Source of the DNA: Fulvimarina sp.
GTDB lineage: Bacteria > Pseudomonadota > Alphaproteobacteria > Rhizobiales > Rhizobiaceae
Direction of reading: 5' to 3'
DNA length: 64,000 nucleotides
Assembly: GCA_002700095.1 (NCBI GenBank)
Contig: PACL01000022.1
Location: 1-64,000 of the forward strand
The first letter of the stretch is position 1; every line of letters starts with the position of its first letter. Position numbers and translations under genes: made by a program. Positions 19,535-42,446 of the stretch are shown in pieces. Below the pieces are notes generated by a model that had not been told where the DNA came from, searched no databases, and worked only from the letters and a program-made list of their open reading frames with translations.

Positions 19535-19563
19535 CCGATCCTCCCAAATCCGTGAGCGCCCGC

Positions 19564-21758: not shown

Positions 21759-21760
21759 TC

Positions 21761-22588
<828 letters not shown>

Positions 22589-22589
22589 C

Positions 22590-23591: not shown

Positions 23592-23811
23592 CGTCTCCTC
23601 CCACCTCGCACCGAGCCACCAGGCACCGGGCCACGAGAAACCGGGCGGTCCGCAAGGCCCGGCCGGTCGGCCGGTCTCCTCCCTTGCAGGTCCCGTCGTT
23701 CCGGCGTCGGCCCGGCGCCCTGACGTCGCCGACGCGGCTGCCATCGCGGACGCGCCGCGACGGCGATGCTCGCGGACGCCGCCGCGGCGTCCGGTTCGCT
23801 TCAGGCGGGGA

Positions 23812-25469: not shown

Positions 25470-26447
25470 GTGAAGGCAGAGGCTGCCGAAGTCCGCAACG
25501 ACACCGACGAGGCGAGCCTCTCGGCGAGGGCGGCGTGGCTGTACTTCTCCGGTGGCATGACGCAAGGGCAGATCGCCAAGCGGCTGGGCGTCGCCAACAC
25601 CAAGGCCCACCGGCTGATCGCCCGGGCGACGCGCGACGGGCTGATCCGCGTCTTCGTCGAGGGCGAGGTTGCCGAATGCGTCCGGCTCGAGGACGATCTG
25701 GCCGAGCGCTTCGGCCTCGATTTCTGCCGCGTCGCGCCAGATCTCGACGAGCCGGGCATGCCGCTGATTGCCCTCGGCCTTGCCGGCGCGACCTTCCTGA
25801 AGAACGAGATCGAACGCGGCGAGCACCGGCTGATCGGCATCGGCCATGGCCGCACGCTGGCCGCCGCCGTCGGCCGGATGCCCCAGCTGGAGGCCGGCGA
25901 GACGCAGTTCGTCTCGGTGCTCGGCGGTTTCAACCGGCGCTTTGCGACCAATCCGTTCGACGTGATCCACCGGCTCGCCGAGAAGACCCGCGCCGAGGCC
26001 TACCAGATCCCACTGCCGCTGTTCGCCAACTCGGTCGAGGACAAGGCGGTGCTGATCGCCCAGTCGGGCATCGGCGAGGTGTTCGACCTCGCCTGTTCCG
26101 CCACGCTGGTCTTTGCCGGCATCGGCAGCGTCTCGGCGGATGCCTCGCTCCTCGCCAACCACATGATCGGCGAGGAGGAGATGAGCCTCCTGCGCGAAAG
26201 CGGCGCCGAGGGCGAGCTTCTCGGCCACTATTTCCGGCTCTCCGGCGAGCCGACGGCCGAGGCCTTCAGCGCAAGGGCGCTGTCGCCCGGCCTCGAGCAT
26301 CTGCGCCGGGCCAGCGTGGTGGCGCTCGCCGGCGGCGCGGAAAAGATCCGTCCGACGCTGTCGCTGCTGCGCAGCGGCGTTCTGAACGGTCTCGTCATCG
26401 ACGAGGCGACGGCCCGCAAGGTGCTTGGGGAGGCGCCCGAGGGATAG
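25470..26447 (+). CDS. SorC-family sugar-binding transcriptional regulator (EryD-like)
   Basis: 325 residues. The N-terminal winged helix-turn-helix is ARAAWLYFSGGMTQGQIAKR followed by LGVANTKAHRLIARA. The rest is the SorC sugar-binding domain, related to sugar isomerases, with the phosphate-sugar-binding segment GIGHGRTLAAAVGRMP and the C-terminal VVALAGGAEKIRPTLSLLRSG. It resembles EryD, the repressor of Brucella/rhizobial erythritol operons, across its length. The GTG at 25470 directly follows GGGGAGG. In-frame codons from 25209 lack support and read through the promoter region. It is the first gene of the operon and probably senses a phosphorylated intermediate of the pathway encoded downstream. 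Confidence 0.85.
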   Translation: MKAEAAEVRNDTDEASLSARAAWLYFSGGMTQGQIAKRLGVANTKAHRLIARATRDGLIRVFVEGEVAECVRLEDDLAERFGLDFCRVAPDLDEPGMPLIALGLAGATFLKNEIERGEHRLIGIGHGRTLAAAVGRMPQLEAGETQFVSVLGGFNRRFATNPFDVIHRLAEKTRAEAYQIPLPLFANSVEDKAVLIAQSGIGEVFDLACSATLVFAGIGSVSADASLLANHMIGEEEMSLLRESGAEGELLGHYFRLSGEPTAEAFSARALSPGLEHLRRASVVALAGGAEKIRPTLSLLRSGVLNGLVIDEATARKVLGEAPEG

Positions 26448-26503
26448 GTGTCAACCGGCCGGTGTGGAGGAGACTATCCGGCCAAAACTGGGAGGAAACA
26501 GGC

Positions 26504-27946
26504 ATGTACGACAAGGAACGAGACCTGATCGACGCGCTTGCGCGCCGACAGATCGGCCGGCGCGAATTCATGCGCCGGGCCGGGCAGCTGGGCCTCGGCG
26601 CGGCGGCGATGACCGGGCTGATGGGCCAGGCCATGAACCGCTCCCTCGCCCAGGATTCCGGCTTCGACTGGAAGGCGCATCAGGGCACGACCCTGAAGCT
26701 CCTCCTCAACAAGCACCCCTATGCCGACGCGATGATCGCCGACATCGAGGCGTTCAAGGAGCTGACCGGCATGGACGTCACCTATGACGTCTTCCCGGAG
26801 GACGTCTATTTCGACAAGGTGACGGCGGCGCTGTCCTCCGGCTCGAGTGAATACGACGCGCTGATGACCGGCGCCTACCAGACCTGGACCTACGGGCCCG
26901 CCGGCTGGCTGGTCGATCTCAACGAATACATCCAGGACGAGGCCAAGACCGCCGGCACCTGGGACTGGGACGACGTGCTGCCCAACCTTCGCGCCTCGAC
27001 CTCCTGGTCCGGCGTTCCGGGCGAGGCGCTCGGCGGCGAGGGCGCCAAGCAGTGGGCCCTGCCCTGGGCCTTCGAGCTGAACTCGATCAGCTACAACCGC
27101 CGCATCTTCGACGAGATGAAGCTGACCCCGCCCAAGGATCTCGCCGAGCTGATGGAGACGGCCGCGAAGATCTCCAAGGACGGCGACGGCCTCTACGGCG
27201 TCGGCGTGCGCGGCTCGCGCTCCTGGGCGACAATCCATCCGGGCTTCCTGTCGGGCTACGCCAACTTCGGCGCCAAGGACTTCAACGTCGACGGCGGCAT
27301 GCTGAAGGCGGCGATGAACTCCCCCGAAGCCAAGACCTTCACCACCGACTGGGTGAAGATGATCCAGGATTCCGGTCCGAAGAACTGGTCGACCTACACC
27401 TGGTACCAGGTCGGCAACGATCTCGGCGCCGGCGCCTCGGGCATGATCTTCGACGCCGACATCCTCGGCTACTTCCAGAACAACGGCGACACCAAGGAAA
27501 AGGGCAACATCGGCTTCCATGCCTTTGCCGCCAATCCCGACGCCAAACAGCCGACGCCGAACGTCTGGATCTGGTCCCTCGCCATGTCGAACTTCTCCGG
27601 CAAGAAGGACGCCACCTGGTACTTCCTCCAGTGGGCGACCTCCAAGGAGCACGACCGCTTCGGCGCGGTCGAGATGGACATGGTCAACCCGGTCCGCCAG
27701 TCGATCTGGGACGACGAGGACTTCAAGAAGCGGATGGAGCAGAACGAGGGCTACCTGAAGCAGTTCGAGGCCTCGGCTCCCGGCGCCAAGATCTACTTCA
27801 CGCCGCAGCCTTTGTTCTTCGACGTGACCACCGCCTGGGCGGCGATGCTCCAGCGCATGGTCGCCGGGGAGGTGCCGGTCGACGAGGGCCTCGACCAGCT
27901 GGTCGCCTCGATCGACGACCAGATGAGCCAGGCCGGCCTGCAGTAA
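26504..27946 (+). CDS. ABC transporter substrate-binding protein, probable polyol binder
   Basis: 480 residues of the family 1 extracellular solute-binding proteins. The N-terminus carries a twin-arginine-type signal (GRREFMRRAGQLGLGAAAM) with likely cleavage near SLAQDS, so export by Tat is suggested. Mature landmarks are VTYDVFPEDVYFDKVTAALS, YDALMTGAYQTWTYG and WALPWAFELNSISYNRRIF. It binds the substrate in the periplasm for the two permeases that follow. The ATG at 26504 has a GGAGGAAA ribosome-binding site. It lies 56 bp after the regulator gene and is followed by a 239-bp gap holding a strong stem-loop. Confidence 0.86.
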   Translation: MYDKERDLIDALARRQIGRREFMRRAGQLGLGAAAMTGLMGQAMNRSLAQDSGFDWKAHQGTTLKLLLNKHPYADAMIADIEAFKELTGMDVTYDVFPEDVYFDKVTAALSSGSSEYDALMTGAYQTWTYGPAGWLVDLNEYIQDEAKTAGTWDWDDVLPNLRASTSWSGVPGEALGGEGAKQWALPWAFELNSISYNRRIFDEMKLTPPKDLAELMETAAKISKDGDGLYGVGVRGSRSWATIHPGFLSGYANFGAKDFNVDGGMLKAAMNSPEAKTFTTDWVKMIQDSGPKNWSTYTWYQVGNDLGAGASGMIFDADILGYFQNNGDTKEKGNIGFHAFAANPDAKQPTPNVWIWSLAMSNFSGKKDATWYFLQWATSKEHDRFGAVEMDMVNPVRQSIWDDEDFKKRMEQNEGYLKQFEASAPGAKIYFTPQPLFFDVTTAWAAMLQRMVAGEVPVDEGLDQLVASIDDQMSQAGLQ

Positions 27947-28069
27947 TTCCGGACGCATCGCCGCGGGGACCAGCTCCGGTCCTCGCCATCGCGGTGCGCC
28001 CGGCAAAAGGCTTGCAGCGCCGCGGCGGGCATCACCCCCGGCCGACGCTGCAAGGCGACCTCCCGAGAC

Positions 28070-28101
28070 CTCCGCGGGCGCTTCACCGAGCGCCCGCGGA
28101 G
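28070..28101 (+). repeat. Perfect 13-bp stem-loop after the binding-protein gene
   Basis: CTCCGCGGGCGCT (28070-28082) and its exact complement AGCGCCCGCGGAG (28089-28101) flank a six-base loop TCACCG. There is no T run after it, so it is not a classic terminator. Its place between the binding-protein and permease genes fits the processing/stability hairpins that keep binding-protein mRNA more abundant than permease mRNA in many ABC operons. That role is inferred. Confidence 0.7.
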
Positions 28102-28185
28102 ACCGGCGCGGCGATACCGCCACTGCAACCGACACATCGACACGCCGCCCCGCGACATCCGATCAAGGCGAATGACAGGCCCGCA

Positions 28186-29139
28186 ATGTCCGCCCTCGAC
28201 CATTCAGCAGCCGCGACCGCGACGAAGGCCGCAACGCCCGCGAGGCGCCGCCGCCGGCGCCAGCGCTGGCTGCCCTATCTCCTATCCCTGCCGGCGCTCC
28301 TGGTGACGGTGTGGATCGTCATCCCGTTCTTTACGGCGATCTACTATTCGATGCTGCGCTACCGGCTGTCGCTGCCGCAGCTCAAGGGCTTCGTCGGGCT
28401 CGACAACTACCTGAATTTCCTGACCGATGGCCGCTTCTGGTACACGGTGCAGGTGTCGCTGCTCTACACGGTGCTCACCGTCGTCATCGAGCTGGTGCTC
28501 GGCCTCGGCATCGCCATCCTGCTGCAGCGCTCCACCCGCTTCAACAATCTCGCCGCCATGCTGCTGCTGCTGCCGCTTATGGTCGCGCCGGCGCTCGCCG
28601 CGCTGATGTGGAAACTGATGACCAATCCGAATTTCGGCGTCCTCAGCTATCTCGTCGGGCTCGCCGGCCTCACCGATTTCCGCTGGGCGTCGGACCCGTC
28701 GACGGCGCTGTTCACGGTGATCCTGGTCGACGTCTGGGTCTACACGCCCTTCATCATGGTGCTGCTGCTCGCCGGGCTGCGCTCGCTGCCCAAGCAGCCC
28801 TTCGAGGCGGCGGCGCTCGACGGCGTGCCGAAGACCTTCGTGTTCTTCCGCATCACCCTGCCGATGCTGATGCCCTACATCCTGACGGCCTCGCTGTTCC
28901 GCATGCTGGAATCGATCCAGCAGTTCGACATCGTCTATGCGATGACCCAGGGCGGCCCCGGCAACACGCTGACCGTCTTCCAGGTCGAGAGCTACCTGCA
29001 GTTTTTCCAGTTCACCAATGTCGGGCGCTCGGCCGCCCTCCTCATGGTGCTCTGGGCGATCACCTACTTCCTGTCCAACGTCTTCGTGAAGAACTGGCTG
29101 CGGCTGCGCGAGCGGGCGCAGGGCGTTGCGGCCGAATAG
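28186..29139 (+). CDS. Carbohydrate ABC transporter permease (MalF-type)
   Basis: 317 residues with a basic N-terminal tail (RRRRRRQRW) and six membrane segments beginning WLPYLLSLPALLVTVWIVI. The ATPase-coupling motif is FEAAALDGVPKTFVFFRITL. It forms the channel of the CUT1-type importer with the permease that follows after 14 bp. The ATG at 28186 is the first that precedes the conserved tail and helix. Upstream in-frame sequence overlaps the stem-loop and the binding-protein gene. No strong ribosome-binding site is seen. Confidence 0.84.
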   Translation: MSALDHSAAATATKAATPARRRRRRQRWLPYLLSLPALLVTVWIVIPFFTAIYYSMLRYRLSLPQLKGFVGLDNYLNFLTDGRFWYTVQVSLLYTVLTVVIELVLGLGIAILLQRSTRFNNLAAMLLLLPLMVAPALAALMWKLMTNPNFGVLSYLVGLAGLTDFRWASDPSTALFTVILVDVWVYTPFIMVLLLAGLRSLPKQPFEAAALDGVPKTFVFFRITLPMLMPYILTASLFRMLESIQQFDIVYAMTQGGPGNTLTVFQVESYLQFFQFTNVGRSAALLMVLWAITYFLSNVFVKNWLRLRERAQGVAAE

Positions 29140-29153
29140 GGGAGGACGAGACC

Positions 29154-30011
29154 ATGCAGCACATGTCCACCGGCGAGCGGCTTCTGCGCGGCGTCCTGAT
29201 CACGCTGGCGCTGATCTTCTTCCTGTTCCCGATCTTCTGGATCCTGCTGATGAGCTTCCAGACCAATGCGGACATCCTCAGGATCCCGCCGAGCCTCTTC
29301 TTCACCCCGACCCTCGACAACTATGTCGCGCTGATCACCGGCGAGCTGAAGACCGCCAGCGGCGTCCTGAAGCTCGCCTTCATGCAGAACCTCTTCAACT
29401 CCTTCATCCTGTCGACGGCCTCGGTCGCCCTCTCCCTCGTCCTCGCGGTGCCGGCAGCCTATGCGTTTGCCCGCTACAAGTTCCGCTTTTCCGAGGACAT
29501 CGCCTTCACGCTCCTGTCCTTCAAGTTCGCCCCGCCGCTGCTCGTGCTTCTGCCGCTGACGATCTACTTCCAGCAGATCGGCCTCGCCAACACCTATATC
29601 GGCCTGATCTGGGTCTACCAGCTGATCACCCTGCCGCTGATCCTGTGGATCGTGCGCGGCTATTTCGAAGACATCAGCCCGGACATCGAGCACGCCTACC
29701 GGATCGCAGGCCACTCCTGGGCGAAGATGTTCTTCAGGATCTCGATCCCGCTGGCCCGCCCCGGCATTGCGGCGGCCGCCCTCCTCTCCTTCATCTTCGC
29801 CTGGAACAATTTCGTCTTCGCGCTGGTGCTGGCCTCCGCCGACAAGCAGCCGGTGACCGTCGGCGCCCTCGCCTTCGTCACGGCGTCGGGCATCCAGTAC
29901 GGCCAGATCGCCGCCGCCGTCGTGATCTCCATCGCGCCGACGCTCGCCCTCGCTCTGTTCGCCCAGCGCTATCTCGTCGAGGGCCTCTCCCTCGGCGCCG
30001 TGAAAGGGTGA
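29154..30011 (+). CDS. Carbohydrate ABC transporter permease (MalG-type)
   Basis: 285 residues, six membrane segments. The coupling motif is a weak EAA form, EHAYRIAGHSWAKMFFRISI, and the protein ends in the typical MalG tail AQRYLVEGLSLGAVKG. The ATG at 29154 has a GGGGAGGACGAG ribosome-binding site. The first ATPase gene starts 4 bp after its stop. With the preceding permease it forms the membrane part of the importer. Confidence 0.86.
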   Translation: MQHMSTGERLLRGVLITLALIFFLFPIFWILLMSFQTNADILRIPPSLFFTPTLDNYVALITGELKTASGVLKLAFMQNLFNSFILSTASVALSLVLAVPAAYAFARYKFRFSEDIAFTLLSFKFAPPLLVLLPLTIYFQQIGLANTYIGLIWVYQLITLPLILWIVRGYFEDISPDIEHAYRIAGHSWAKMFFRISIPLARPGIAAAALLSFIFAWNNFVFALVLASADKQPVTVGALAFVTASGIQYGQIAAAVVISIAPTLALALFAQRYLVEGLSLGAVKG

Positions 30012-30015
30012 GCCG

Positions 30016-31170
30016 ATGACGACCCTCGAACTCCAGAACGTCACCAAGCGCTACGGCAAGGAGACCGTTCTCCACGGCCTCGACCTTGCCGTCGCCGACG
30101 GCGAGACGGTGGCGATCTTCGGCCCCTCCGGCGCCGGCAAGACGGTGCTCCTCAGGCTGATCGCCGGCATGGCCGAGCCGGAGGAGGGCGAGATCCTGAT
30201 GGACGGCGAGGACCTGATCGACGTCGCGCCGGAAGACCGCTCCGTCGGCATGGCGTTCCAGAATTTTGCGCTGTTCCCCCACATGTCGGCCTTCGACAAC
30301 ATCGCCGCGCCGCTCGATGCGCGGCGAGCAAAGCGCGAGGCGATCGCCGACGGCGTTCACGCGATCGCCAGGCTCCTGAAGATCGACCATGTGCTCGGCC
30401 ACGCGCCCCGGGCGCTCTCCAACGGCCAGAAGCAGCGCACCGCCTTGGCCCGCGCCCTCGTCGGCGCGCCGAAGATCCTCCTCCTCGACGATCCGCTCAG
30501 GAACGTCGACGCCAAGCTGCGCTTCGAGATGCGACTGGAACTGCCTCGGCTGCTCGAAGGCTTCGGCTCGACGGTGCTCTACGTGACGCAGGACTACCGC
30601 GAGGCGATGGCTCTGGGCGACCGCATCGCCGTCCTGATGGACGGGCGCTTCATTCAGGTGGGCACGCCCGAGGAGATCTACCTGACGCCCGCAACCGTCG
30701 CCGTCGCCGAACTCTTCGGCGATCCGGTGATCAATCTCTTCGACGCGCGGGTCGAACCGTCGGGCGGCGGCAGCGTCGCCGTCGTCGGCTCGGCGCGGCT
30801 GGCGCTGTCGCCGGGCTACGCGAACCTTTACGGCACTACCGTCACCCTCGGCATCCGGCCGGAGAACGTCGCCCCGGCAGGGGCCGGGACGGCCGGCGCG
30901 ATCGCCGCCCGCGTCGCAGCGCTGCTGCCGCTCAACGACCGGCTGGTGCGGCTGCTGGTGACCGACGAGGGCGCCGAATTCTACACCTCCCGCGACTTCG
31001 GCGGCGAGACCGCCGGCGAAGGCGCGCGCGTCAACGTCACCGCGGCTTCGCAGGACGTCATCCTCTTCGACAAGGCCAGCCGCCGGCGGATCGCGCCGGA
31101 GGGTGAGGCCGCTGTCATCCCCGCAGCGCCGGTCGGGCGAGAGCACCGGGCAGGACGCGTATCAGCATGA
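30016..31170 (+). CDS. ABC transporter ATP-binding protein with degenerate catalytic residues
   Basis: 384 residues of the MalK/UgpC family with a C-terminal TOBE-like domain (TLGIRPENVAPAG). Walker A GPSGAGKT and Q-loop AFQNFALFPHMS are intact. Walker B reads ILLLDDPLRNVD, with Asp for the catalytic Glu, and the switch histidine is Gln in YVTQDYREAM. The signature is LSNGQKQRTALAR. This subunit should bind ATP but hydrolyse it poorly, so the importer likely has one strong and one weak ATP site, completed by the next gene. Paired, diverged ATPases of this type (GlpS/GlpT) serve glycerol uptake in Rhizobium leguminosarum. Confidence 0.86.
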   Translation: MTTLELQNVTKRYGKETVLHGLDLAVADGETVAIFGPSGAGKTVLLRLIAGMAEPEEGEILMDGEDLIDVAPEDRSVGMAFQNFALFPHMSAFDNIAAPLDARRAKREAIADGVHAIARLLKIDHVLGHAPRALSNGQKQRTALARALVGAPKILLLDDPLRNVDAKLRFEMRLELPRLLEGFGSTVLYVTQDYREAMALGDRIAVLMDGRFIQVGTPEEIYLTPATVAVAELFGDPVINLFDARVEPSGGGSVAVVGSARLALSPGYANLYGTTVTLGIRPENVAPAGAGTAGAIAARVAALLPLNDRLVRLLVTDEGAEFYTSRDFGGETAGEGARVNVTAASQDVILFDKASRRRIAPEGEAAVIPAAPVGREHRAGRVSA

Positions 31171-31264
31171 CGGTGGCATCGAACATCCTTCAGCTGTTGC
31201 GGCCTTCGCGCCCCGCGCAGACCACAGACAATCGACCGCCATCCACACCCAGAAGGCCCAGCCG

Positions 31265-32407
31265 ATGACCGCCTCCGTCGTCCTCAAGACCGTCAACAAG
31301 ATCTACGCCGCCAAGGCGAAGAACCCGATCTATGCGGTGCGCGACTTCTCCATCGAGATCGCGCCCGGCGAGATCGTCGCGCTGCTCGGCTCGTCCGGCT
31401 GCGGCAAGACCTCGACGCTGCGGATGATCGCCGGCTTCGAGGAGGTCACCAAAGGCTCGATCGCCATCGGCGGGCGCGAGATCCACATGCTCCCGCCAGC
31501 CAGGCGCGGCGTTGCCATGGCTTTCGAGGGCTATTCGCTCTATCCGCCGCTGACGCTGCGCCAGAACATCGCCTTCGCGCTGAAATCGGAACGGCTGGGG
31601 AGCGCGGAGACCGACCGGCGCGTCGAAGAGGTGGCAAAACTCCTCGAACTGACGAAGCATCTCGATCGCTATCCCGCCACCGTCTCGGCCGGCCAGCAGC
31701 AGCGCGCCAGCCTCGGCCGGGCGCTGGTGAGGAAGGCCGACCTCTATCTCCTCGACGAGCCGATGGGCCAGCTGGAGCCGCAGCTGCGCGCCATCCTGCG
31801 CGGGCGGCTGAAACGCTATTTGCGCGAACACGGGCTCACCGCCATCCTCGTCACCCACGATCAGACCGAGGCGAATGCGCTGGCAGACCGGATCGCGGTG
31901 ATGGAAGGCGGCGTGCTGCAGCAGTTCGCCTCCCCCGCCGAACTGAAGGAAAAGCCGGCTAATCTTTACGTCGGCACCTTCATCGGCGAGCCGCCCATGA
32001 ACGTCTACCGGGTCGAGCCGCAGATCGCCGACGGCCGGGTGTCGCTGCGGGCCGGCGAGACGGAACTCTTCGGCTACGACGCGGCCCGCATGCAGGACGC
32101 CGTCGTCGGCCTCCTCGCCCGGCAGTCCTCCGTCGTCGTCGGCGTGCGGCCGGCCGACGTCGCGGTATCTCCGGCGAACGGTCGCGGCGGCGCAACGGCG
32201 AAGATCGTCTCCAACCAGTGGATCGGCGACCAGAGCCACCTGGAATCGGCCTTCGGCGACGGCGTCATCGTCGCGACTCTGGACGGACGCTTCGCGGGAT
32301 CCAGCGGCGAGACGCTGTCGGTGAGCGTGCCGCCGGAGAAGCTGCACATCTTCGCCGAGGACGGGCCGGCCCTCGCCCATGGCCGCCATCTGGCCGGAGA
32401 GCCCTGA
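31265..32407 (+). CDS. ABC transporter ATP-binding protein, second subunit
   Basis: 380 residues. Walker A GSSGCGKTS, Walker B LYLLDEPMGQLEP with the catalytic Glu, and the switch His in ILVTHDQTEA are present. The Q-loop is changed (MAFEGYSLYPPLT, Glu for Gln) and the signature is VSAGQQQRASLGRAL rather than LSGGQ. It complements the first ATPase: the site using this subunit's Walker motifs should hydrolyse ATP. The ATG at 31265 directly precedes the conserved TASVVLKTVNKIY. In-frame codons from 31103 overlap the previous gene. Its stop overlaps the kinase start by one base (TGATG). Confidence 0.85.
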   Translation: MTASVVLKTVNKIYAAKAKNPIYAVRDFSIEIAPGEIVALLGSSGCGKTSTLRMIAGFEEVTKGSIAIGGREIHMLPPARRGVAMAFEGYSLYPPLTLRQNIAFALKSERLGSAETDRRVEEVAKLLELTKHLDRYPATVSAGQQQRASLGRALVRKADLYLLDEPMGQLEPQLRAILRGRLKRYLREHGLTAILVTHDQTEANALADRIAVMEGGVLQQFASPAELKEKPANLYVGTFIGEPPMNVYRVEPQIADGRVSLRAGETELFGYDAARMQDAVVGLLARQSSVVVGVRPADVAVSPANGRGGATAKIVSNQWIGDQSHLESAFGDGVIVATLDGRFAGSSGETLSVSVPPEKLHIFAEDGPALAHGRHLAGEP

Positions 32408-33975
32408 TGGCCGATGGCAGCGTCCTGATCGGCATCGATGCCGGCACCTCGGTGATCAAGTCCGTCGCCTTCGACCTCGATGGCCGGCAGCTCGCCGAAG
32501 CGTCGCGGCCCAACGTCTACGAAGCGCTGCCGAACGGCGGCGTGGTGCAGGACATGGCCCGGACCTTCGCCGACACGGCTGAGACGCTGCGCGCCCTCGT
32601 GGAGAAGCTTCCCGGCGGGGCGGCGAGCGTCCTTGCGGTCGCGGTCACCGGCCAGGGGGACGGCACCTGGCTGGCGGACCGGGACGGCGAGCCGGTGGCG
32701 CCCGCCTGGCTCTGGCTCGACGCCCGCGCCGGCGACATCGCGACGGAGCTGACCCGACGCGCGTCCTATCGCCGGCAATACGAGACCACCGGCACCGGCA
32801 TCAATGCCTGCCAGCAGAGCGTCCATCTCCTGCACATGAGCCGGCACACGCCCGAATGGCTGGAGCGGGCGACAACCGCCTTCCACTGCAAGGACTGGCT
32901 CTATTTCAAGCTGACGGGGGAGCGAGCCGTCGATCCGAGCGAGGCGACCTTCACCTTCGGCGATTTTCGCACCCGCACCTACAGCGACGAGGTGATCGCG
33001 GGGCTCGGCCTCGAGCATTGCCGCCAGCTGCTGCCGCCGATCGTCGACGGCCGCCGGCGGAGCCATCGCCTGAGCCCGGACGCTGCCGCCGCCACCGGCC
33101 TTCTCGCCGGAACGCCCGTCATTCTCGGCTATGTCGACGTCGTCTGCACCGCCGTCGGCGGTGGCCTCATCGCTCGGGACGGCGAGGCCGGCTGTTCGGT
33201 CCTCGGCTCGACCGGCATGCACATGCGCCATGTCGGCGGCGCCGACGACGTCCATCTCAACGACGACGGCAGCGGCTACGTCATGCTCCTGCCGGGCGAA
33301 AACTCATATGCCCAGATCCAGTCCAACATGGCGGCGACACTGAACATCGACTGGATGCTGGACCTCGCCTGCGGCATCCTGCGCGACGGGGGTGTCGCGC
33401 GCGAGCGCCGCGATCTCGTCGCCGGCCTCGACGAGCGGGTGCTGGCGGCAAGGCCGCTTGCCGCGATCTACCACCCTCACATTTCCGAGGCCGGCGAACG
33501 CGGCCCGTTCATGGACCCGTTCGCCCGCGCCGGCTTCACCGGGCTTTCCGCCGGCGCCGGCTTCGACGACATGATGCGCAGCGTCCTCGAAGGCCTCGGC
33601 TTTGCCGCCCGGCATTGCTACGAGGCGACCGGCAAGGTTCCCGCCGAGGTGCGGCTCACCGGCGGGGCGGCGCGCTCGAAGGCGATGCGCCAGATCCTCG
33701 CCGACGTGCTCGGTGTGCCGGTGCGCACCGGCGGGATCGCCGAGGCGGGCGCCGCCGGGGCGGTGATGATCGCACTTGTCCAGCAGGGCCACTTCGCCGA
33801 CATCGAGGCGGCGGCCGATGCCTGGGTGACGCCGCGTCTGTCCGAACCGACCCTTCCCGACACCGCGCTCGTCCCCCCCTACGACGCGGCCTTCGACCTC
33901 TACCGCGACCTGTCGGGCATGCTTCGGCCCGCCTGGCAACGGCTCGCGGCCATCAAGCGCGGAATGCGGACATGA
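32407..33975 (+). CDS. FGGY carbohydrate kinase, erythritol-kinase-like (EryA-like)
   Basis: 522 residues, the length of EryA. The ATP-phosphate motif is IGIDAGTSVIKSVAFDLDG and the catalytic region includes VTGQGDGTWLADRDGEPVAP and HCKDWLYFKLTGERAVDPSE. The C-terminal ATPase half has GSTGMHMRH, GGAARSKAMRQILAD and EAGAAGAVM. The resemblance to Brucella erythritol kinase is spread over the whole chain, so phosphorylation of a tetritol or pentitol is the best guess. It overlaps the upstream ATPase gene by one base and the downstream dehydrogenase by four (ATGA). The substrate is not proven, because transporter type and neighbours differ from the classical ery locus. Confidence 0.83.
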   Translation: MADGSVLIGIDAGTSVIKSVAFDLDGRQLAEASRPNVYEALPNGGVVQDMARTFADTAETLRALVEKLPGGAASVLAVAVTGQGDGTWLADRDGEPVAPAWLWLDARAGDIATELTRRASYRRQYETTGTGINACQQSVHLLHMSRHTPEWLERATTAFHCKDWLYFKLTGERAVDPSEATFTFGDFRTRTYSDEVIAGLGLEHCRQLLPPIVDGRRRSHRLSPDAAAATGLLAGTPVILGYVDVVCTAVGGGLIARDGEAGCSVLGSTGMHMRHVGGADDVHLNDDGSGYVMLLPGENSYAQIQSNMAATLNIDWMLDLACGILRDGGVARERRDLVAGLDERVLAARPLAAIYHPHISEAGERGPFMDPFARAGFTGLSAGAGFDDMMRSVLEGLGFAARHCYEATGKVPAEVRLTGGAARSKAMRQILADVLGVPVRTGGIAEAGAAGAVMIALVQQGHFADIEAAADAWVTPRLSEPTLPDTALVPPYDAAFDLYRDLSGMLRPAWQRLAAIKRGMRT

Positions 33976-35009
33976 GCACACTCTCGATCATCGGCGACCA
34001 CTTCATGCTGCCGGAGATGTTCCGCTCGGCGATCGAGGCGGCCTGCGACACCCCGCCCGAGATGGCGCTCCACACCCTCCCCTGGCCGGACGAGCCGATG
34101 GAGCACGGCTACGAAGTCGCCGGCATGGACGGCCTGAAGGAATACCAGGGCTCCGCCGAGGCGACGATCGCAAGGATCGGCGAGGCCGAGATGCTGGTGA
34201 CGCATCTGGCCCCGCTGTCGCGGACAATGTTCGAGAGCCTGCCGCGGCTGCGCTTCGTCGCGGTCTCGCGCGGCGGGCCGGTCAATATCGATATGGCGGC
34301 GGCGCGCGAGGCCGGCGTGCGTGTCGTCAACACGCCGGGACGCAATGCCTCCGCCGTCGCCGAATTCACCCTCGGCGCGATCCTCGCCGAGACCCGCAAC
34401 ATCACCCGCGGCCATGACGCGCTGCGCGGCCAGACCTGGCGCGGCGATCTCTACCGTGCCGACCGGACCGGTCGCGAGCTCTCCGAGATGACCGTCGGCG
34501 TCGTCGGCTACGGCGCCATCGGCACCAAGGTGGTGCGGCTCCTGCGGGCCTTCGGCTGCAAGGTGCTGGTCGCCGATCCCTATGTGCAGCTGGCGCGCGA
34601 CGACAGCGAGACCGGCGTCGAGCATGTCGGCCTCGAGGAACTTCTGGCCCGCTCCGACGTCGTCACCCTGCACTGCCGGGTGACGGAAGAGACGACGAAG
34701 ATCATCAATGCCGAGACCCTCGCCCGGATGAAGCCGGACGCCACCTTCGTCAACACCGCCCGCGGCCCGCTGGTCGACTATGACGCCTTGACCGAGGCGA
34801 TGCAGGCGGGCCACCTGCGCGGCGCGATGCTGGAGCCCTTCGCCGTCGAGCCGGTGCCGCCGGACTGGCCGCTGCTGGCCCTGCCCAACGTGACGCTGAC
34901 GCCGCACATCGCCGGCGCCTCGGTGAAGACGGTGTCCTTCGCCGCCGAGCAGGCCGCCGAGGAAGTGCGCCGCTATCTCGCCGGCGAACCGCCCGTGAAC
35001 CCCTGTTGA
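33972..35009 (+). CDS. D-isomer-specific 2-hydroxyacid dehydrogenase
   Basis: 345 residues. The NAD-binding motif is VGVVGYGAIGTKVVRLLRAF, with the catalytic Arg in FVNTARGPLVD, an acidic residue in GAMLEPFAVEP and His in LTPHIAGAS. It should interconvert a 2-oxo acid and a D-2-hydroxy acid, in the manner of phosphoglycerate or glyoxylate/hydroxypyruvate reductases. The N-terminal 50 residues diverge from well-known members. Its place inside a polyol operon suggests disposal of a two- or three-carbon product such as glyoxylate, glycolate or hydroxypyruvate, which is inference. The start overlaps the kinase stop (ATGA). Confidence 0.84.
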   Translation: MSTLSIIGDHFMLPEMFRSAIEAACDTPPEMALHTLPWPDEPMEHGYEVAGMDGLKEYQGSAEATIARIGEAEMLVTHLAPLSRTMFESLPRLRFVAVSRGGPVNIDMAAAREAGVRVVNTPGRNASAVAEFTLGAILAETRNITRGHDALRGQTWRGDLYRADRTGRELSEMTVGVVGYGAIGTKVVRLLRAFGCKVLVADPYVQLARDDSETGVEHVGLEELLARSDVVTLHCRVTEETTKIINAETLARMKPDATFVNTARGPLVDYDALTEAMQAGHLRGAMLEPFAVEPVPPDWPLLALPNVTLTPHIAGASVKTVSFAAEQAAEEVRRYLAGEPPVNPC

Positions 35010-35075
35010 GGCGCGGACGATCCCGCCTGTCGGACTGGCCGCGCAATCCCGGCCGAGCATGATGGAAGCGAAGCC

Positions 35076-36590
35076 ATGGCAGATCTGGGTACGGTCGACC
35101 TCCTGGTGATCGGCGGCGGCGTCAACGGCGCCGGCATCGCGCGGGATGCGGCCGGGCGCGGGCTGTCGGTCGTGCTCACGGAAAAGGACGATCTTGCCGA
35201 AGGCACCTCGTCGCGCTCCGGCAAGCTCGTCCATGGCGGCCTGCGCTATCTGGAATATTACGAGTTCCGGCTGGTGCGCGAGGCGCTGTCGGAGCGCGAG
35301 GTGCTGCTGAAAGCCGCGCCGCACATCATCTGGCCGATGCGCTTCGTCCTGCCCCATTCGCCCGAGCAGCGCCCGGCCTGGCTCGTCCGGCTCGGCCTCT
35401 TCCTCTACGATCATCTCGGCGGGAGAAAGCGCCTGCCCGGCACGAGGTCCCTCGACCTGCGCACCGCGCCGGAGGGCGCGCCGATCAAGGATCGCTTCAC
35501 CAAGGGTTTCGAATATTCCGACTGCTGGGTCGACGACGCCCGGCTCGTCGTCCTCAACGCCCTCGACGCCAGGGAGCGCGGCGCGACCATCCTCACCCGA
35601 ACGAAAGCCGTCTCGGCGCGGCGCGAGGCCGGCCTCTGGCGGGCGGAGCTGAGACGCGAGGGCGGCGAGACGGTCACGGTCTCGGCAAGGGGAATCGTCA
35701 ATGCCGCCGGCCCCTGGGTCGACCAGGTGATCGCCAACGTCACCCGGGCCAATTCCGCCCGCAAGGTGCGGCTGGTGAAGGGCAGCCACATCGTCACGCC
35801 GAAATTCTGGGAGGGCAACCAGGCCTATCTCTTCCAGAACACCGACAAGCGGGTGATCTTCATGAACCCCTATCAGGGCGACAAGACGCTGATCGGCACC
35901 ACAGACATCGCCTATCAGGGTGACGCGAAAGACGTGTCCGTCGACGAGAGCGAGATCGACTATCTGCTCGCCGCGGTGAACCGCTACGTCAAGGCGGAGC
36001 TGACGCGGGCCGACGTCCTGCATGCCTTCTCCGGCGTCCGGCCGCTGCTCGAGGACGACGCCGAGAACCCCTCCGCCGTGACCCGGGACTACGTCTTCGA
36101 CGTCGACGCCGAGGACGGGCAGCTGCCGCTTCTGTCAGTCTTCGGCGGCAAGATCACCACCTATCGCGAACTCGCCGAGCGTGGTCTGGCGCAGATCGCG
36201 CCGTTCTTTCCGCAGATGTCGGGCGACTGGACAGCCGACATGCCGCTGCCCGGCGGCGACATGGCGAATGCCGACTTCGAGAGCTTCGAGGCGTCGTTCC
36301 GGGCCCGCCATCCGTTCCTGCCCCGCGCGCTCGCCCGCCACTATGCCCGGCTCTACGGCACCCGCGCCGAGGTGCTGATCGGCGGTGCGTCGAGCCTCGT
36401 CGATCTCGGCCGGCATTTCGGCGGCCTCCTCTATGCCCGGGAGATCGACTACCTCGTTGCGACAGAATGGGCCGAGACCGCCGAGGACATTCTCGAGCGC
36501 CGCACCAAGCACGGCCTCGCCCTCACCGACGCGGAAAGACGCGCCGTCGGCGACTATCTCGACCAGCGCCAGTCGCTCGCCGCCCAATGA
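35076..36590 (+). CDS. FAD-dependent glycerol-3-phosphate dehydrogenase family (GlpD/EryB-like)
   Basis: 504 residues. The FAD motif is LLVIGGGVNGAGIARDAAGR, followed by GTSSRSGKLVHGGLRYLE, typical of GlpD. Further GlpD landmarks are VNAAGPWVDQV, RLVKGSHIV, YQGDKTLIGTTD and FSGVRPLLEDD, and the C-terminal GGKITTYRELAE. Such enzymes oxidise a polyol phosphate (glycerol 3-phosphate, or erythritol 4-phosphate for EryB) at the inner membrane and pass electrons to quinone. Next to an EryA-like kinase, a tetritol or pentitol phosphate is a more likely substrate than glycerol 3-phosphate. The ATG at 35076 is 66 bp after the previous gene. Confidence 0.87.
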   Translation: MADLGTVDLLVIGGGVNGAGIARDAAGRGLSVVLTEKDDLAEGTSSRSGKLVHGGLRYLEYYEFRLVREALSEREVLLKAAPHIIWPMRFVLPHSPEQRPAWLVRLGLFLYDHLGGRKRLPGTRSLDLRTAPEGAPIKDRFTKGFEYSDCWVDDARLVVLNALDARERGATILTRTKAVSARREAGLWRAELRREGGETVTVSARGIVNAAGPWVDQVIANVTRANSARKVRLVKGSHIVTPKFWEGNQAYLFQNTDKRVIFMNPYQGDKTLIGTTDIAYQGDAKDVSVDESEIDYLLAAVNRYVKAELTRADVLHAFSGVRPLLEDDAENPSAVTRDYVFDVDAEDGQLPLLSVFGGKITTYRELAERGLAQIAPFFPQMSGDWTADMPLPGGDMANADFESFEASFRARHPFLPRALARHYARLYGTRAEVLIGGASSLVDLGRHFGGLLYAREIDYLVATEWAETAEDILERRTKHGLALTDAERRAVGDYLDQRQSLAAQ

Positions 36591-36649
36591 CCGCCACGGC
36601 CATGCTCCTCGCGTCCTGAAAACCTGCCGCAATGTTCGGAGAGACGACC

Positions 36650-37777
36650 ATGCCACCGTCCGACGGTTTCGACCTTGCCAGCGAGTTCGGCGCGCTGAAG
36701 CGGCTCTCCGCCGCCCTCGGACGCGACCGGCGGCGCACCCAGGCCGCGGGCGGCAACACCTCGCTGAAGCATAACGGCATCCTGTGGGTGAAGGCCTCCG
36801 GCACCTGGCTGTCCGAGGCCGAGGACAAGGACATCTTCGTGCCCGTCAGGATCGCTCCGCTGTTGGAGGCGCTGCGCAGCGGCGATCCGCGCGCCGAAAA
36901 GGCCACGGACTTCGTCGCCGCCGAACTCTCCGGCACCACCCTGCGCCCCTCCATCGAGACCAGCGTCCACGCGGCGATCCCGCAGGCCGTCGTCCTCCAT
37001 ATCCACTGCGTCGAGACCATCGCGCTCGCCGTGCGGACGGACGGCGAGGCCCGCATTCGCGAGAGGCTGCAGGCGGCCGGGCTGACGGAGCGGTTCGCCC
37101 ATGTGCCCTATTGCCGGCCGGGCGTGCCCCTGTCGCGGGAGATCGCCAGGGTGGCCGGTCCGATGATAGACGTCATCGTCCTCGAAAACCACGGCCTCGT
37201 CGTCGCTGGTGAGAGCGTCGCCGAGGCGGCGGAAAGGCTGGAGGCCGTGGTCGCGGCGCTGGCGACGCCGCCGCGAGATGCCCCGGAGGATGCACAGCGA
37301 GGTTCTGGGGCGGAGCCCGGTCTGGCAGAGCTGTCGACGCTGGCGGAGGGAACGCCCTACCGCCTGCCGGCCGACGCCACCGCCCACCGCATCGCTCGCG
37401 CCCCGGCCGCAAGGCGCGTCGCCCTTGCCGGCCCGCTCTATCCCGACCACGTCATCTTCCTCGGCGAGGCGGTCGGCCATGTCGAAGCCAGCCGCGCGGC
37501 GCTCGGCGCATTCCTGGCCGAGGCCGGCGCCAGCGCGCCGCCCCTTTTGCTGGTGGATGGTCTCGGGGTTCTCGTCCGCGACACCGTCACGGCCAGCGGC
37601 GAGGCGCTGGTCGGATGCCTCGCCGACGTCGCAGCCCGCATTCCCGAGGATGCGCCGCTGAAGCCGTTCACCGCGGCGGAGCTCCACGCCCTCACCCACT
37701 GGGAGGCGGAAAGCTACCGCCAGTCCCTCGACCGGCCACCCGCCGTCGGTTCCGGCGCGCCTGGGGCGACGCCATGA
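36650..37777 (+). CDS. Class II aldolase/adducin family protein
   Basis: 375 residues. The N-terminal 220 form a class II aldolase/adducin fold: phosphate-binding GGNTSLK and WVKASGTWLSEAED, the acidic SIETSVHAAIP segment, zinc-binding HIHCVE and the third ligand region VLENHGLVVAGES. The remaining 150 residues (with YPDHVIFLGEAVGHVEA) resemble the extension found in the aldolase half of bifunctional rhamnulose-1-phosphate aldolase/dehydrogenases. It may cleave a ketose 1-phosphate to DHAP and an aldehyde. The ATG at 36650 follows GGAGAG; an in-frame ATG at 36632 is less well placed. It overlaps the next kinase gene by four bases (ATGA). Confidence 0.82.
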   Translation: MPPSDGFDLASEFGALKRLSAALGRDRRRTQAAGGNTSLKHNGILWVKASGTWLSEAEDKDIFVPVRIAPLLEALRSGDPRAEKATDFVAAELSGTTLRPSIETSVHAAIPQAVVLHIHCVETIALAVRTDGEARIRERLQAAGLTERFAHVPYCRPGVPLSREIARVAGPMIDVIVLENHGLVVAGESVAEAAERLEAVVAALATPPRDAPEDAQRGSGAEPGLAELSTLAEGTPYRLPADATAHRIARAPAARRVALAGPLYPDHVIFLGEAVGHVEASRAALGAFLAEAGASAPPLLLVDGLGVLVRDTVTASGEALVGCLADVAARIPEDAPLKPFTAAELHALTHWEAESYRQSLDRPPAVGSGAPGATP

Positions 37778-39054
37778 GCACGGCCGCCCCCCCCCCCGCC
37801 GTCGCCGTCGGTATCGACGTCGGCACTTCCGGCGCCCGGGTTGCGGCCATCGCCGCCGATGGTTCGCTCGTTGCCACCGCCGCTCAGCGTTACGGCGACG
37901 CCAGCGACAGGGCGGATCCGGCCACCTGGTGGCACGCCGTCTCCGCCTGCCTCGACCAGCTCGCCGCCGCGACCTCCCTTGCCGCCGTCGCGGCGCTGGC
38001 CGTCGACGGCACCTCGGGGACGATGCTCGGTCTTCGCGCCGACTGCGCTCCCGCGGCCCGGCCGCTGATGTATGACGAGCCCTGCCCGGACGACGCGATC
38101 GTTGCGGCCGTCGATGCGGCGGCGCCAGGCGACAGCCCGGCGCGCGGGGCGAATTCGGCGCTCGCGCGGGCGATCCACCTTTCGCGCCAACCGGGCGTGA
38201 CCCACGTCGTCCATCAGGCCGACTGGATCGCCGCGCAGATCACCGGAGGCGCGCCCGTCTCCGATGCCAACAACGCCCTGAAGACCGGCTACGACCCGCT
38301 CGCCCAAGCCTGGCCCGGCTGGATCGCCGATGCCGGCATGGACCCCGCGAAGCTGCCCGGGGTAGTCCTGCCCGGTCGCCCCATCGGCCCGCTCGGAGGG
38401 CTGGCGGCCGCCCGTTTCGGCCTTCCCGCCGACGCCCTCCTTGCCGGCGGCACCACGGACGGCTGCGCCTCGTTCCTTGCCACCGGCGCCGACAGACCCG
38501 GCGACGCGGTGACGGCGCTCGGCTCGACGCTGGTACTGAAGCTGCTCTCCGACCGGCCGGTCAACGCCCCCCGCTATGGCATCTACAGCCACCGCATCGG
38601 CGACATGTGGCTCGCCGGCGGCGCCTCCAACACCGGCGGCGCGGTGCTTGCGGCGCATTTCGACGCGGCGAGGATCGAGGCGCTGACGCCTTCGCTCGAT
38701 CCGGCCACTCCGACCGGGCTCGACTATTACCCGCTGACCCGGCCCGGCGAGCGGTTTCCGGTCAACGACCCGGCGCTGGCCCCGCGCCTGTCGCCGCGCC
38801 CCGCCGACGACGCGACGTTCCTGCAGGGCCTGCTGGAAGGCATCGCCAGCGTCGAGGCGCTCGGCTATCGCCGCCTGTCGGAGATCGGCGCGCCGGCCCT
38901 CGCCAGCGTCCGCTCGGTCGGCGGCGGGGCGAAGAACCCGGCCTTCACCCAGATCAGGGAACGAGCGCTCGGCGTGCCGTTCCTGCCGGCGCTGTCGACC
39001 GAAGCAGCCGTGGGAACGGCACGGCTGGCGCTGCGAGCGCTGACGACGGACTGA
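37774..39054 (+). CDS. FGGY-family pentulose kinase (ribulokinase/SePSK-like)
   Basis: 426 residues, shorter than EryA or XylB. Motifs: AVGIDVGTSGARVAAIAADG, the catalytic-Asp region AALAVDGTSGTMLGL (Asp in VDGT), GGTTDGCASFLATGA, GSTLVLKLLS and the C-terminal VGGGAKNPAFTQIRERALG. It fits the short FGGY branch that includes cyanobacterial/plant D-ribulose kinases. In this operon it may phosphorylate a ketose formed or imported alongside the polyol. Codons 5-8 contain an 11-C homopolymer, which makes the frame here sensitive to slippage or sequencing error. The start overlaps the aldolase stop (ATGA). Confidence 0.8.
   Translation: MSTAAPPPAVAVGIDVGTSGARVAAIAADGSLVATAAQRYGDASDRADPATWWHAVSACLDQLAAATSLAAVAALAVDGTSGTMLGLRADCAPAARPLMYDEPCPDDAIVAAVDAAAPGDSPARGANSALARAIHLSRQPGVTHVVHQADWIAAQITGGAPVSDANNALKTGYDPLAQAWPGWIADAGMDPAKLPGVVLPGRPIGPLGGLAAARFGLPADALLAGGTTDGCASFLATGADRPGDAVTALGSTLVLKLLSDRPVNAPRYGIYSHRIGDMWLAGGASNTGGAVLAAHFDAARIEALTPSLDPATPTGLDYYPLTRPGERFPVNDPALAPRLSPRPADDATFLQGLLEGIASVEALGYRRLSEIGAPALASVRSVGGGAKNPAFTQIRERALGVPFLPALSTEAAVGTARLALRALTTD
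37787..37797 (+). repeat. Run of eleven cytosines at codons 5-8 of the second kinase
   Basis: A C11 tract begins 13 bases after the ATG at 37774. In the present length the kinase frame is open. A change by one base would stop production of the kinase. Confidence 0.9.
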
Positions 39055-39115: not shown

Positions 39116-39811
39116 TCACACCGTCAGGTGCTTCCTCACGGCCGGATCGTCCAGCCCCTCGGCCGGGCCCTTGAAGACGATGACGCCGCGATCCATGACA
39201 TAGACCTTGTCGGCGAGCTCCCGGCAGAAGTCGAGATACTGCTCGACCAAGAGGATCGCCATGCCGGAATTCTCCTTCAGGAAGCGGATCGCGCGGCCGA
39301 TGTCCTTGATGATCGACGGCTGGATCCCCTCCGTCGGCTCGTCCAGCACCAGGAGCTGCGGCCGCGTCACCAGCGCCCGGCCGATCGCCAGCTGCTGCTG
39401 CTGGCCGCCCGAAAGGTCGCCGCCGCGCCTCCCCAGCATGTCCTTCAGCACCGGGAACAGCTCGTAGACATGGTCCGGGATCGACCGGTCCGCCGACTTC
39501 AGCGGCGCATAGCCGGTCTGGAGGTTTTCCTTCACGGTGAGCAGCGGGAAAATCTCGCGTCCCTGGGGCACGAAGCCGATGCCCCGCCTAGCGCGATTGT
39601 AGGGCGCCTCGCGGCCCATCACCTCGCCATCGAAGGCGATCTCGCCGCGCCGGATCGGCTGCTGGCCGACGACGGCGCGCAGCAGCGAGGTCTTGCCGAC
39701 CCCGTTGCGCCCGAGGACGCAGGTGATCTCACCCTTCTTCGCGCCGATCGAGACGTTTCGGAGCGCCTGGGCGGCGCCGTAGTAGAGATCGACGTTGGAA
39801 ACCGTCAGCAT
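39116..39811 (-). CDS. urtE: Urea ABC transporter ATP-binding protein UrtE
   Basis: 231 residues, the size and type of LivF/UrtE. Walker A GRNGVGKTSLL, Q-loop FVPQGREIFPLLTV, signature DLSGGQQQQLAIGRAL, Walker B LLVLDEPTEGIQPS and H-loop LLVEQYLDF. GREIFPLLTVKENL is typical of UrtE. It is the last gene of urtABCDE. The ATG at 39811 starts the conserved MLTVSNVDLYYG. Upstream in-frame codons run into the palindromic repeat region, where the 280-bp gap separates it from urtD. Together with UrtD it powers urea uptake. Confidence 0.92.
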   Translation of the reverse strand: MLTVSNVDLYYGAAQALRNVSIGAKKGEITCVLGRNGVGKTSLLRAVVGQQPIRRGEIAFDGEVMGREAPYNRARRGIGFVPQGREIFPLLTVKENLQTGYAPLKSADRSIPDHVYELFPVLKDMLGRRGGDLSGGQQQQLAIGRALVTRPQLLVLDEPTEGIQPSIIKDIGRAIRFLKENSGMAILLVEQYLDFCRELADKVYVMDRGVIVFKGPAEGLDDPAVRKHLTV

Positions 39812-39910
39812 GGGGGTGATGTCTCCGCGCGGCAGCCGGATGTTTCTGTCAGGAGGCGTGAAGTCCGTGGCGCGTCGACGCGGACGAACGGCCGCGAAAC
39901 TCGAGGCCTC

Positions 39911-40038
39911 GTCATTCTCGGGCCCCGTCCCGAGAATCCAGGGCCACCCGCCGCACCATCGCCCGCTTCCGCCTTCTGCAGCTGAAACCAATCGCGCCCG
40001 ACGATCTCTGGATTCTCGGGACGGGCCCCGAGAATGAC
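39911..40038. repeat. Pair of inverted 31-bp palindromic repeat units (BIME/REP-like)
   Basis: A 31-base unit at 39911-39941 (GTCATTCTCGGG, CCCCG, TCCCGAGAATCCAG) recurs as its reverse complement at 40008-40038 with one mismatch. Each unit is itself a palindrome, ATTCTCGGG facing CCCGAGAAT. The spacer is 66 bp. Dispersed palindromes with an ATTCTCGGG core are common in rhizobial genomes. The pair lies in the urtD-urtE gap, where the RNA could fold into two hairpins or one long one and affect transcript stability. Confidence 0.88.
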
Positions 40039-40091
40039 GCCGCGGAGGTGAAAGCGTCCCGTCGCGTGGAACGCAGGAGTCACTGCCGTCA

Positions 40092-41171: not shown

Positions 41172-41176
41172 GTCCG

Positions 41177-42352: not shown

Positions 42353-42446
42353 AGCGCCGCCTCCGTCCGCCCAGGCAAATGGGCATGGGAGATCAGCCAG
42401 TCTCGGGCGTATCGGGACATCGAAGGAGGTTCCAAACCCTGCCACC

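Follow-up and report, generated by a model that had tools for sequence, protein, structure and literature searches.

A trimmed member of the Sinorhizobium meliloti-type polyol locus in Fulvimarina sp., likely to serve pentitols

The stretch of Fulvimarina sp. DNA analysed here (positions 1 to 64,000 of contig PACL01000022.1, assembly GCA_002700095.1; hereafter the window) carries at 25470-39054 an operon of eleven genes, all on the + strand, and its membership of the known Sinorhizobium meliloti-type polyol locus, of which it is a trimmed form, is well supported. It is likely that the operon corresponds to eryD-mptABCDE-eryA-rbtA-eryB-lalA-rbtB, that it belongs to the category of such loci without eryC, eryR and tpiB, and that it serves pentitols, of which L-arabitol and ribitol (adonitol) are the likeliest. 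An earlier reading made from the letters of the window (the sequence-only reading) had placed eleven co-directional genes here, all of which are present at these positions, on contig C52 of the host assembly (5.62 Mb, 100 contigs, 93.3% complete). Its suggestion that they might encode an undescribed pathway gives way to a gene-for-gene match with the S. meliloti-type erythritol/adonitol/L-arabitol locus (PMC3599248).

The S. meliloti erythritol locus has been described as containing 17 genes and its NGR234 counterpart as lacking only fucA1 (PMC3599248). The loci retrieved here agree on both counts: 17 distinct genes were counted in the operon of S. meliloti Ak57 (locus L003), and a FucA-like gene is the sole absence from the NGR234 locus (L014) in comparison with L003, which supports their S. 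meliloti-type identity. In agreement with this identification, a single EryA-like kinase of more than 50% identity occurs in each of the two records; the L003 gene for a TIM-barrel protein has 68% identity to a sequence annotated as EryC. The order of the genes in the operon, from EryA through EryC, is that in which identity cut-offs are given in PMC3599248 (MptA, EryD, EryA, RbtA, EryB, LalA, RbtB, RbtC, EryC, TpiB, EryR, EryG), and it is from this order that we infer the names RbtA, LalA, RbtB and RbtC for the hydroxyacid dehydrogenase, the long aldolase, the short kinase and the HAD phosphatase, respectively. Compared with L003 (the reference thus being strain Ak57 and not 1021), six of the seven window proteins that have a listed cut-off exceed it, namely EryD (52.6% identity, cut-off 44%), MptA (64.3% over 437 amino acids, 56%), EryA (55.3%, 46%), RbtA (72.8%, 50%), EryB (67.5%, 65%) and RbtB (56.2%, 51%) (PMC3599248). 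MptB, MptD and MptE are 71%, 57% and 54.5% identical to their L003 counterparts, and MptC, for which the L003 permease match is broken, is 78.6% identical to that of NGR234. The L003 record itself (CP090106.1, 3.7 Mb) is labelled pSymB of S. meliloti Ak57; it leaves the binding protein, one permease and RbtC without annotation, and these are split or interrupted there, possibly through sequencing error. The label is perhaps incorrect.

In both the window and the S. meliloti-type locus, an EryD-type regulator gene precedes the genes of a binding protein, two permeases and two ATPases in the same order, the latter locus having its own five-gene importer, MptABCDE (PMC3599248); a transposon insertion in SMc01627 marks the strain used as an mptB mutant (PMC10433430). 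Domains were assigned with Pfam and NCBIfam, one of the two ATPases being run in Pfam and the other in NCBIfam. The regulator (25470-26447, GTG start) is of the sugar-binding SorC/LsrR family (Pfam Sugar-bind, 194.5 bits), and LsrR/DeoR-type NCBIfam models matched it below cut-off. Among the solved relatives of the MptA-like solute-binding protein (26504-27946; SBP_bac_1) are 4rya, labelled as sorbitol-binding, and the sugar-type binding proteins 5iai and 5ci5; this protein and the MptB-like (28186-29139) and MptC-like (29154-30011) permeases, both matching BPD_transp_1, are of the CUT1 type. The ATPases are MptD-like (30016-31170; UgpC-type NCBIfam match below cut-off) and MptE-like (31265-32407; ABC_tran). 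The sequence-only reading had held that classical erythritol loci use a different transporter, which applies only to the R. leguminosarum/Brucella type; the S. meliloti type uses MptABCDE (PMC3599248). In comparison with loci L009-L012, no EryEFG ribose-type transporter was found in the window operon, the importer there being of the CUT1 type.

Two trees agree with the earlier assignment of a kinase and a dehydrogenase of this polyol operon to the EryA and EryB families. The FGGY polyol kinase EryA (32407-33975; FGGY_N and FGGY_C) falls into one family with the annotated EryA-type kinases, which are nested inside it, in a tree built from a selection of 24 operon kinases, four EryA sequences and two outgroups. 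The GlpD-like polyol-phosphate dehydrogenase EryB (35076-36590; flavin adenine dinucleotide (FAD)-dependent type; PRK13369 glycerol-3-phosphate dehydrogenase, 839.7 bits, over cut-off) clusters with EryB and at a clear distance from the GlpD encoded in the host's own glycerol locus. A likeness to autoinducer-2 kinase and LsrR was dropped, both models scoring below cut-off and the tree placing the kinase with EryA. In S. meliloti, EryA accepts erythritol, adonitol and L-arabitol, which have a common stereochemistry across three carbons, and lalA-rbtABC is used for pentitols and not for erythritol (PMC3599248). The same source describes a third category of loci, in which EryA, EryB, EryD, MptA and LalA-RbtABC occur without EryC, EryR and TpiB, and interprets it as an adonitol/L-arabitol complement; Aurantimonas sp. 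SI85-9A1 is listed there among genomes whose putative locus is left undiscussed (PMC3599248).

Furthermore, the arrangement recurs widely. Loci were sampled by a contig scan seeded with five aligned hydroxyacid dehydrogenases, the best 80 of 242 relatives being retained with at most 10 kb on either side, so that gene counts over these 80 loci are lower bounds for the genomes and the hydroxyacid dehydrogenase is present in 80 of 80 by design. Locus gene matches that covered less than 40% of the query or had an E value greater than 1e-8 were dropped, as were, in the presence table, matches below 45% identity (below 35% for LalA, RbtC, FucA1 and RpiB). In this genome-neighbourhood survey, of a kind the sequence-only reading had suggested, the gene order of the operon is repeated in most of the 80 loci, which come from other alphaproteobacteria, and the arrangement is therefore not due to chance. 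Locus counts were 77 for the kinase, 74 for the GlpD-like protein, 71 for the binding protein, 66 for the short kinase, 58 for the HAD phosphatase, 50 for the FucA-like protein, 49 for the long aldolase and 35 for the EryC-type protein. The closest locus, from Aurantimonas sp. 22II-16-19i (L027), has all 11 genes at 88-99.6% protein identity, followed by that of Jiella flava (L028) at 65-94%; the Aurantimonadaceae are therefore the likeliest family of the host. The hydroxyacid dehydrogenase was detected at E below 1e-170 in five of the ten same-genus genomes (host included), three of which are, by matching coordinates, L027, L028 and L031, and the operon was seen in all three.

The chemistry of the operon is a separate question, for which aldol cleavage is the leading reading. 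The scheme of the sequence-only reading, from polyol to polyol phosphate to ketose phosphate and then to an aldol split, fits the enzymes, every enzymatic step after EryA being conjectural. EryD would sense a polyol or polyol phosphate and MptABCDE would import the polyol; EryA would phosphorylate the CH2OH end adjoining the common hydroxyl pair, and EryB would oxidise the neighbouring carbon to give a 3R ketose-1-phosphate, presumably L-xylulose-1-phosphate from L-arabitol and D-ribulose-1-phosphate from ribitol. LalA, as a RhaD/FucA-like aldolase, would then cleave either product to dihydroxyacetone phosphate (DHAP) and glycolaldehyde, RbtB would convert free D-ribulose to D-ribulose-5-phosphate, and RbtA may act on a 2-hydroxy or 2-oxo acid, perhaps glyoxylate or glycolate derived from glycolaldehyde. 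Judged from the structures, phosphorylation of the shared end followed by GlpD-like oxidation of the next carbon should turn erythritol, ribitol and L-arabitol into D-erythrulose-1-phosphate, D-ribulose-1-phosphate and L-xylulose-1-phosphate, respectively, all of them 3R. The FucA and RhaD aldolases of E. coli form 3R products, and EryC is a D-erythrulose-1-phosphate 3-epimerase (PMC10733421); FucA also cleaves a D-arabinose-derived phosphate, and a rhaB/rhaD route runs via L-xylulose-1-phosphate (PMC6443609). The 3R stereochemistry of FucA and RhaD is that expected from EryA and EryB, which supports aldol cleavage. The proposal as a whole, in which pentitols bypass the pentose phosphate pathway through the split by LalA and RbtA recycles the two-carbon product, is put forward tentatively.

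The class II aldolase superfamily protein LalA (36650-37777; Aldolase_II) has an extra C-terminal part, and its best NCBIfam matches, all below cut-off, are aldolase/short-chain dehydrogenase fusions that include RhaD_aldol-ADH. Its residues Glu103, His107, His117, His119 and His181 are kept in 55 of 55 homologues, counted among those of at least 34% identity with an unbroken open reading frame (ORF) inside the locus. Within this set, H117, H119 and H181 together with E103 form the signature of a DHAP-dependent class II aldolase, the histidine triad being, as we take it from FucA, the zinc ligands and the glutamate the catalytic residue. In the predicted model (mean predicted local distance difference test, pLDDT, 89.8), class II aldolase folds were matched over approximately 200-240 columns of 375 residues, so that the C-terminal part appears to be left uncovered. 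The window protein is 59-67% identical to the LalA-like proteins of L028, L030, L031 and L032. Five of five searched genomes that have no LalA inside the fetched region carry a LalA-like sequence beyond it, one with an internal stop, one a short fragment and two, both from Bradyrhizobium, seemingly just past the region edge by coordinates. Twenty loci have RbtB and no LalA, 19 of them from Bradyrhizobium with a divergent RbtB near the locus edge; the table is therefore uninformative on LalA in these, and both Bradyrhizobium genomes searched have it.

The nearest solved structures to the short FGGY kinase RbtB (37774-39054) are those of SePSK (5htn/5htr, E approximately 1e-95), an enzyme whose assays pointed to D-ribulose kinase activity (PMC4880283), and not a solved L-ribulokinase. 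Activity of SePSK needs Asp8, Thr11 and Asp221 (PMC4880283); the equivalents of these residues and of Ser72 and Lys163 are present in 66 of 66 RbtB homologues, chosen under the same limits of identity and frame as those of LalA. RbtB thus resembles the SePSK/AtXK-1 type in sequence and catalytic residues and differs from SePSK at the substrate residue Ser222, which is Gly in 66 of 66 homologues, and at Ser12, which is Gly in 15 of 66; on its sequence, it is a probable D-ribulose kinase. In RbtA (33972-35009; 2-Hacid_dh and 2-Hacid_dh_C), a member of the D-isomer 2-hydroxyacid dehydrogenase family, Arg264, Glu293 and His312 are kept by every one of the 86 aligned homologues with 60% identity or more, a pattern that points to an acid substrate.

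Homologues of these enzymes also occur in other surroundings. In L092 (Hoeflea poritis) and L103 (Kiloniellaceae), the fetched regions around RbtA homologues of 70% identity contain neither recognisable Mpt genes nor a close EryA. On a Paracoccus seriniphilus plasmid (L008, 9992-13257), an EryA-like kinase, an RbtA-like dehydrogenase and a FucA-like aldolase stand among sulfatase genes with no EryB or Mpt genes nearby; this trio may be a minimal version that could reveal the role of RbtA. A sugar-acid pathway with PdxB-like use of RbtA may still account for the Paracoccus trio but was not favoured, an isomerase or decarboxylase not being seen beside the trio. On Shinella and Aminobacter plasmids (L004, L005, L007), an isolated LalA-RbtB-RbtC-like trio has a ribose-type importer close by; L-rhamnose genes are also near it in L005 and L007. 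Routes for apiose, rhamnose and deoxyribose were considered and set aside, these trios fitting the lalA-rbtBC suboperon of PMC3599248 and not a new pathway.

Several observations weigh against the pentitol assignment or against the aldol scheme. The lal and rbt names rest on gene order, and LalA, conserved in position, is 47.6% identical to its L003 counterpart, slightly below the cut-off of 49% (PMC3599248). Jiella flava (genome G002, which is L028 by coordinates) has the same trimmed operon and an EryC elsewhere in its genome, so that trimming alone is no proof that the erythritol branch has been lost. RbtC was not found after 39054, and its sole homologue in the host, of 36% identity on contig C30, is probably a housekeeping protein, to judge from neighbours that look ileS- and ribF-like; without RbtC in the operon, free D-ribulose for RbtB would have no obvious origin. 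RbtC is present in 56 of the 66 loci that have RbtB, the window operon, L027 and L028 lacking it, and part of the flux elsewhere may therefore go by dephosphorylation and re-phosphorylation. RbtA, with its acid-type active site, has no certain place in the scheme and is retained in loci without LalA nearby. Finally, fucA1 is dispensable in S. meliloti (PMC3599248), and aldol cleavage by FucA1 is thus at least not required there.

The frequent occurrence of RbtC, the kinship of RbtB to a D-ribulose kinase and the dispensability of fucA1 all favour a different chemistry on the same pentitols, in which the ketose-1-phosphate is dephosphorylated, RbtB re-phosphorylates D-ribulose at C5 and LalA is a C4 epimerase linking L-xylulose-1-phosphate and D-ribulose-1-phosphate. 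This is a variant of the best explanation, with which its probability overlaps, and we consider it rather unlikely. In its support, the AraD 4-epimerase also has a class II aldolase fold, and its structure 1jdi, at rank 23 for the LalA model, stands above E. coli FucA (1dzx, from rank 33); Bacteroides FucA is at rank 2, and the order of fold matches does not tell an aldolase from an epimerase. Against it stand the absence of RbtC from the window operon and its nearest loci, the RhaD-type fusions among the sequence models of LalA, and the glutamate kept at the aldolase position throughout the LalA homologues, where AraD presumably has an aspartate.

It is improbable that the operon serves erythritol, with TpiB-like and RpiB-like genes elsewhere in the genome completing an erythrose-4-phosphate route. 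The sequence-only reading had reported EryC, EryH and EryI as missing, which holds for the region searched in the window, 20001-45000; in the host assembly as a whole, EryC was likewise not found, whereas an EryH (TpiB)-like gene of 53% identity is present on C34 and an EryI (RpiB)-like gene of 68% on C26, as an erythritol operon with its isomerases elsewhere would have it. The membership of EryA and EryB in their families and the retention of EryC in Jiella flava also favour erythritol. So do the regions of L034 (Aureimonas) and L029 (Aurantimonas), which end at EryB with no LalA or RbtB nearby and have EryC and RpiB-like genes (L034) or an RpiB-like gene (L029) upstream. Against this, three queries gave no EryC in the host assembly, which at 93.3% completeness may have missed it; the third, from Aurantimonas manganoxydans, retrieved the Jiella flava gene at E 3e-155 and matches of at least 57% identity in ten further of 61 genomes. 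Among the same-genus genomes that carry the hydroxyacid dehydrogenase, five in all, a full-length EryC was retrieved from Jiella flava only, and a match of 97 residues with two stops was found in G006. Engineered E. coli needed EryC between D-erythrulose-1-phosphate and L-erythrulose-1-phosphate (PMC10733421). Also significant is the setting of the host genes: no eryR-tpiB-rpiB suboperon was found in the window operon, the TpiB-like gene adjoins DhaK and DhaL genes and the RpiB-like gene stands alone on its contig.

At C34:2964-5087 (L023), a single 707-residue frame combines a SorC-like regulator with a DhaK domain, possibly as a regulator-kinase fusion or through a lost stop, and is followed by a DhaL-like gene and the convergent TpiB-like gene. 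This DhaK, found in a Dak1 search of the host genome, was considered as part of an erythrulose route and set aside as a separate locus. A FucA1-like gene of 52% identity lies on C61, the match holding one TGA, either at the gene end or inside it.

That the operon is an undescribed pathway for another polyol, such as threitol, xylitol or D-arabitol, is more doubtful still: ten window proteins (MptC excepted) are 47.6-72.8% identical to those of S. meliloti L003, which leaves room for it, but the genes and their order are those of a genetically characterised locus and the binding protein, at 64%, lies above the MptA cut-off of 56% (PMC3599248). A glycerol operon, to which the glycerol-3-phosphate dehydrogenase match of EryB would point, can practically be dismissed, given the separate GlpK/GlpD/ABC-type glycerol locus on contig C56 and a kinase that groups with EryA, far from the C56 GlpK.

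Of the ten gene junctions, three overlap (-1, -4 and -4) and the others are spaced by 4 to 239 bases; the overlapping stops and starts of the sequence-only reading do exist and are fewer than the 'many' it had claimed. Of the eleven frames, seven pass the composition filter, some of them in a form extended upstream, with a third-position guanine-plus-cytosine content of 0.83-0.90; the other four are not in the composition listing, we think because the listed ORF start probably lies far upstream of the gene. The flanks look unrelated. To the left, a divergent - strand operon at 18425-25077 encodes a MalK/UgpC-type ATPase over the UgpC cut-off, permease-like matches and a 640-residue protein to which BglA and TreC models match without reaching their cut-offs, and is perhaps for alpha-glucoside use; beyond it, at 15857-17281 on the - strand, lies an FAD oxidoreductase near the MerA and lipoamide dehydrogenase models, below their cut-offs. 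Immediately to the right, the - strand genes at 39116-44132 encode UrtE, UrtC and UrtB of a urea ABC transporter, each over cut-off.

The locus type is known genetically, and neither a biochemical study of LalA, RbtA or RbtC nor an assigned reaction for them was found among the matches listed from the open-licence literature. If pentitols are split as proposed, the operon would be a natural counterpart, starting at the polyol, of the engineered ribulose-1-phosphate and xylulose-1-phosphate glycolaldehyde pathways, and such a natural glycolaldehyde-forming route would be useful for metabolic engineering. The trimmed Aurantimonadaceae version, whose operon is without EryC, RbtC and FucA1, has fewer enzymes, so that the pentitol route must depend on those that are left, and is a convenient place to distinguish aldol cleavage from re-phosphorylation.

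From the regulator and the importer through the kinase, the hydroxyacid dehydrogenase and EryB to the long class II aldolase and the short FGGY kinase, the window operon follows the gene order of the S. meliloti locus. It differs in the lower identity of LalA and in the lack of fucA1, rbtC, eryC and eryR-tpiB-rpiB, the Sinorhizobium operon extending past RbtB with a HAD phosphatase (RbtC), a TIM-barrel epimerase (EryC), a DeoR regulator (EryR), TpiB and RpiB. With the R. leguminosarum/Brucella ery locus (eryEFG, eryABCD, tpiB-rpiB) it shares the EryA, EryB and EryD families; that type has the ribose-type transporter EryEFG and EryC, whereas the window operon has a CUT1-type importer, LalA, RbtA and RbtB. 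It fits the third category of loci (Bradyrhizobium BTAi1 and ORS278, Acidiphilium and Verminephrobacter; PMC3599248), in which, as here, EryA, EryB, EryD, MptA, RbtA, LalA and RbtB are present and EryC, EryR and TpiB are absent from the locus. Those genomes are tabulated with RbtC, whereas the host has only the probable housekeeping homologue and, unlike them, a TpiB-like gene elsewhere, which at 53% is below the cut-off of 69% (PMC3599248).

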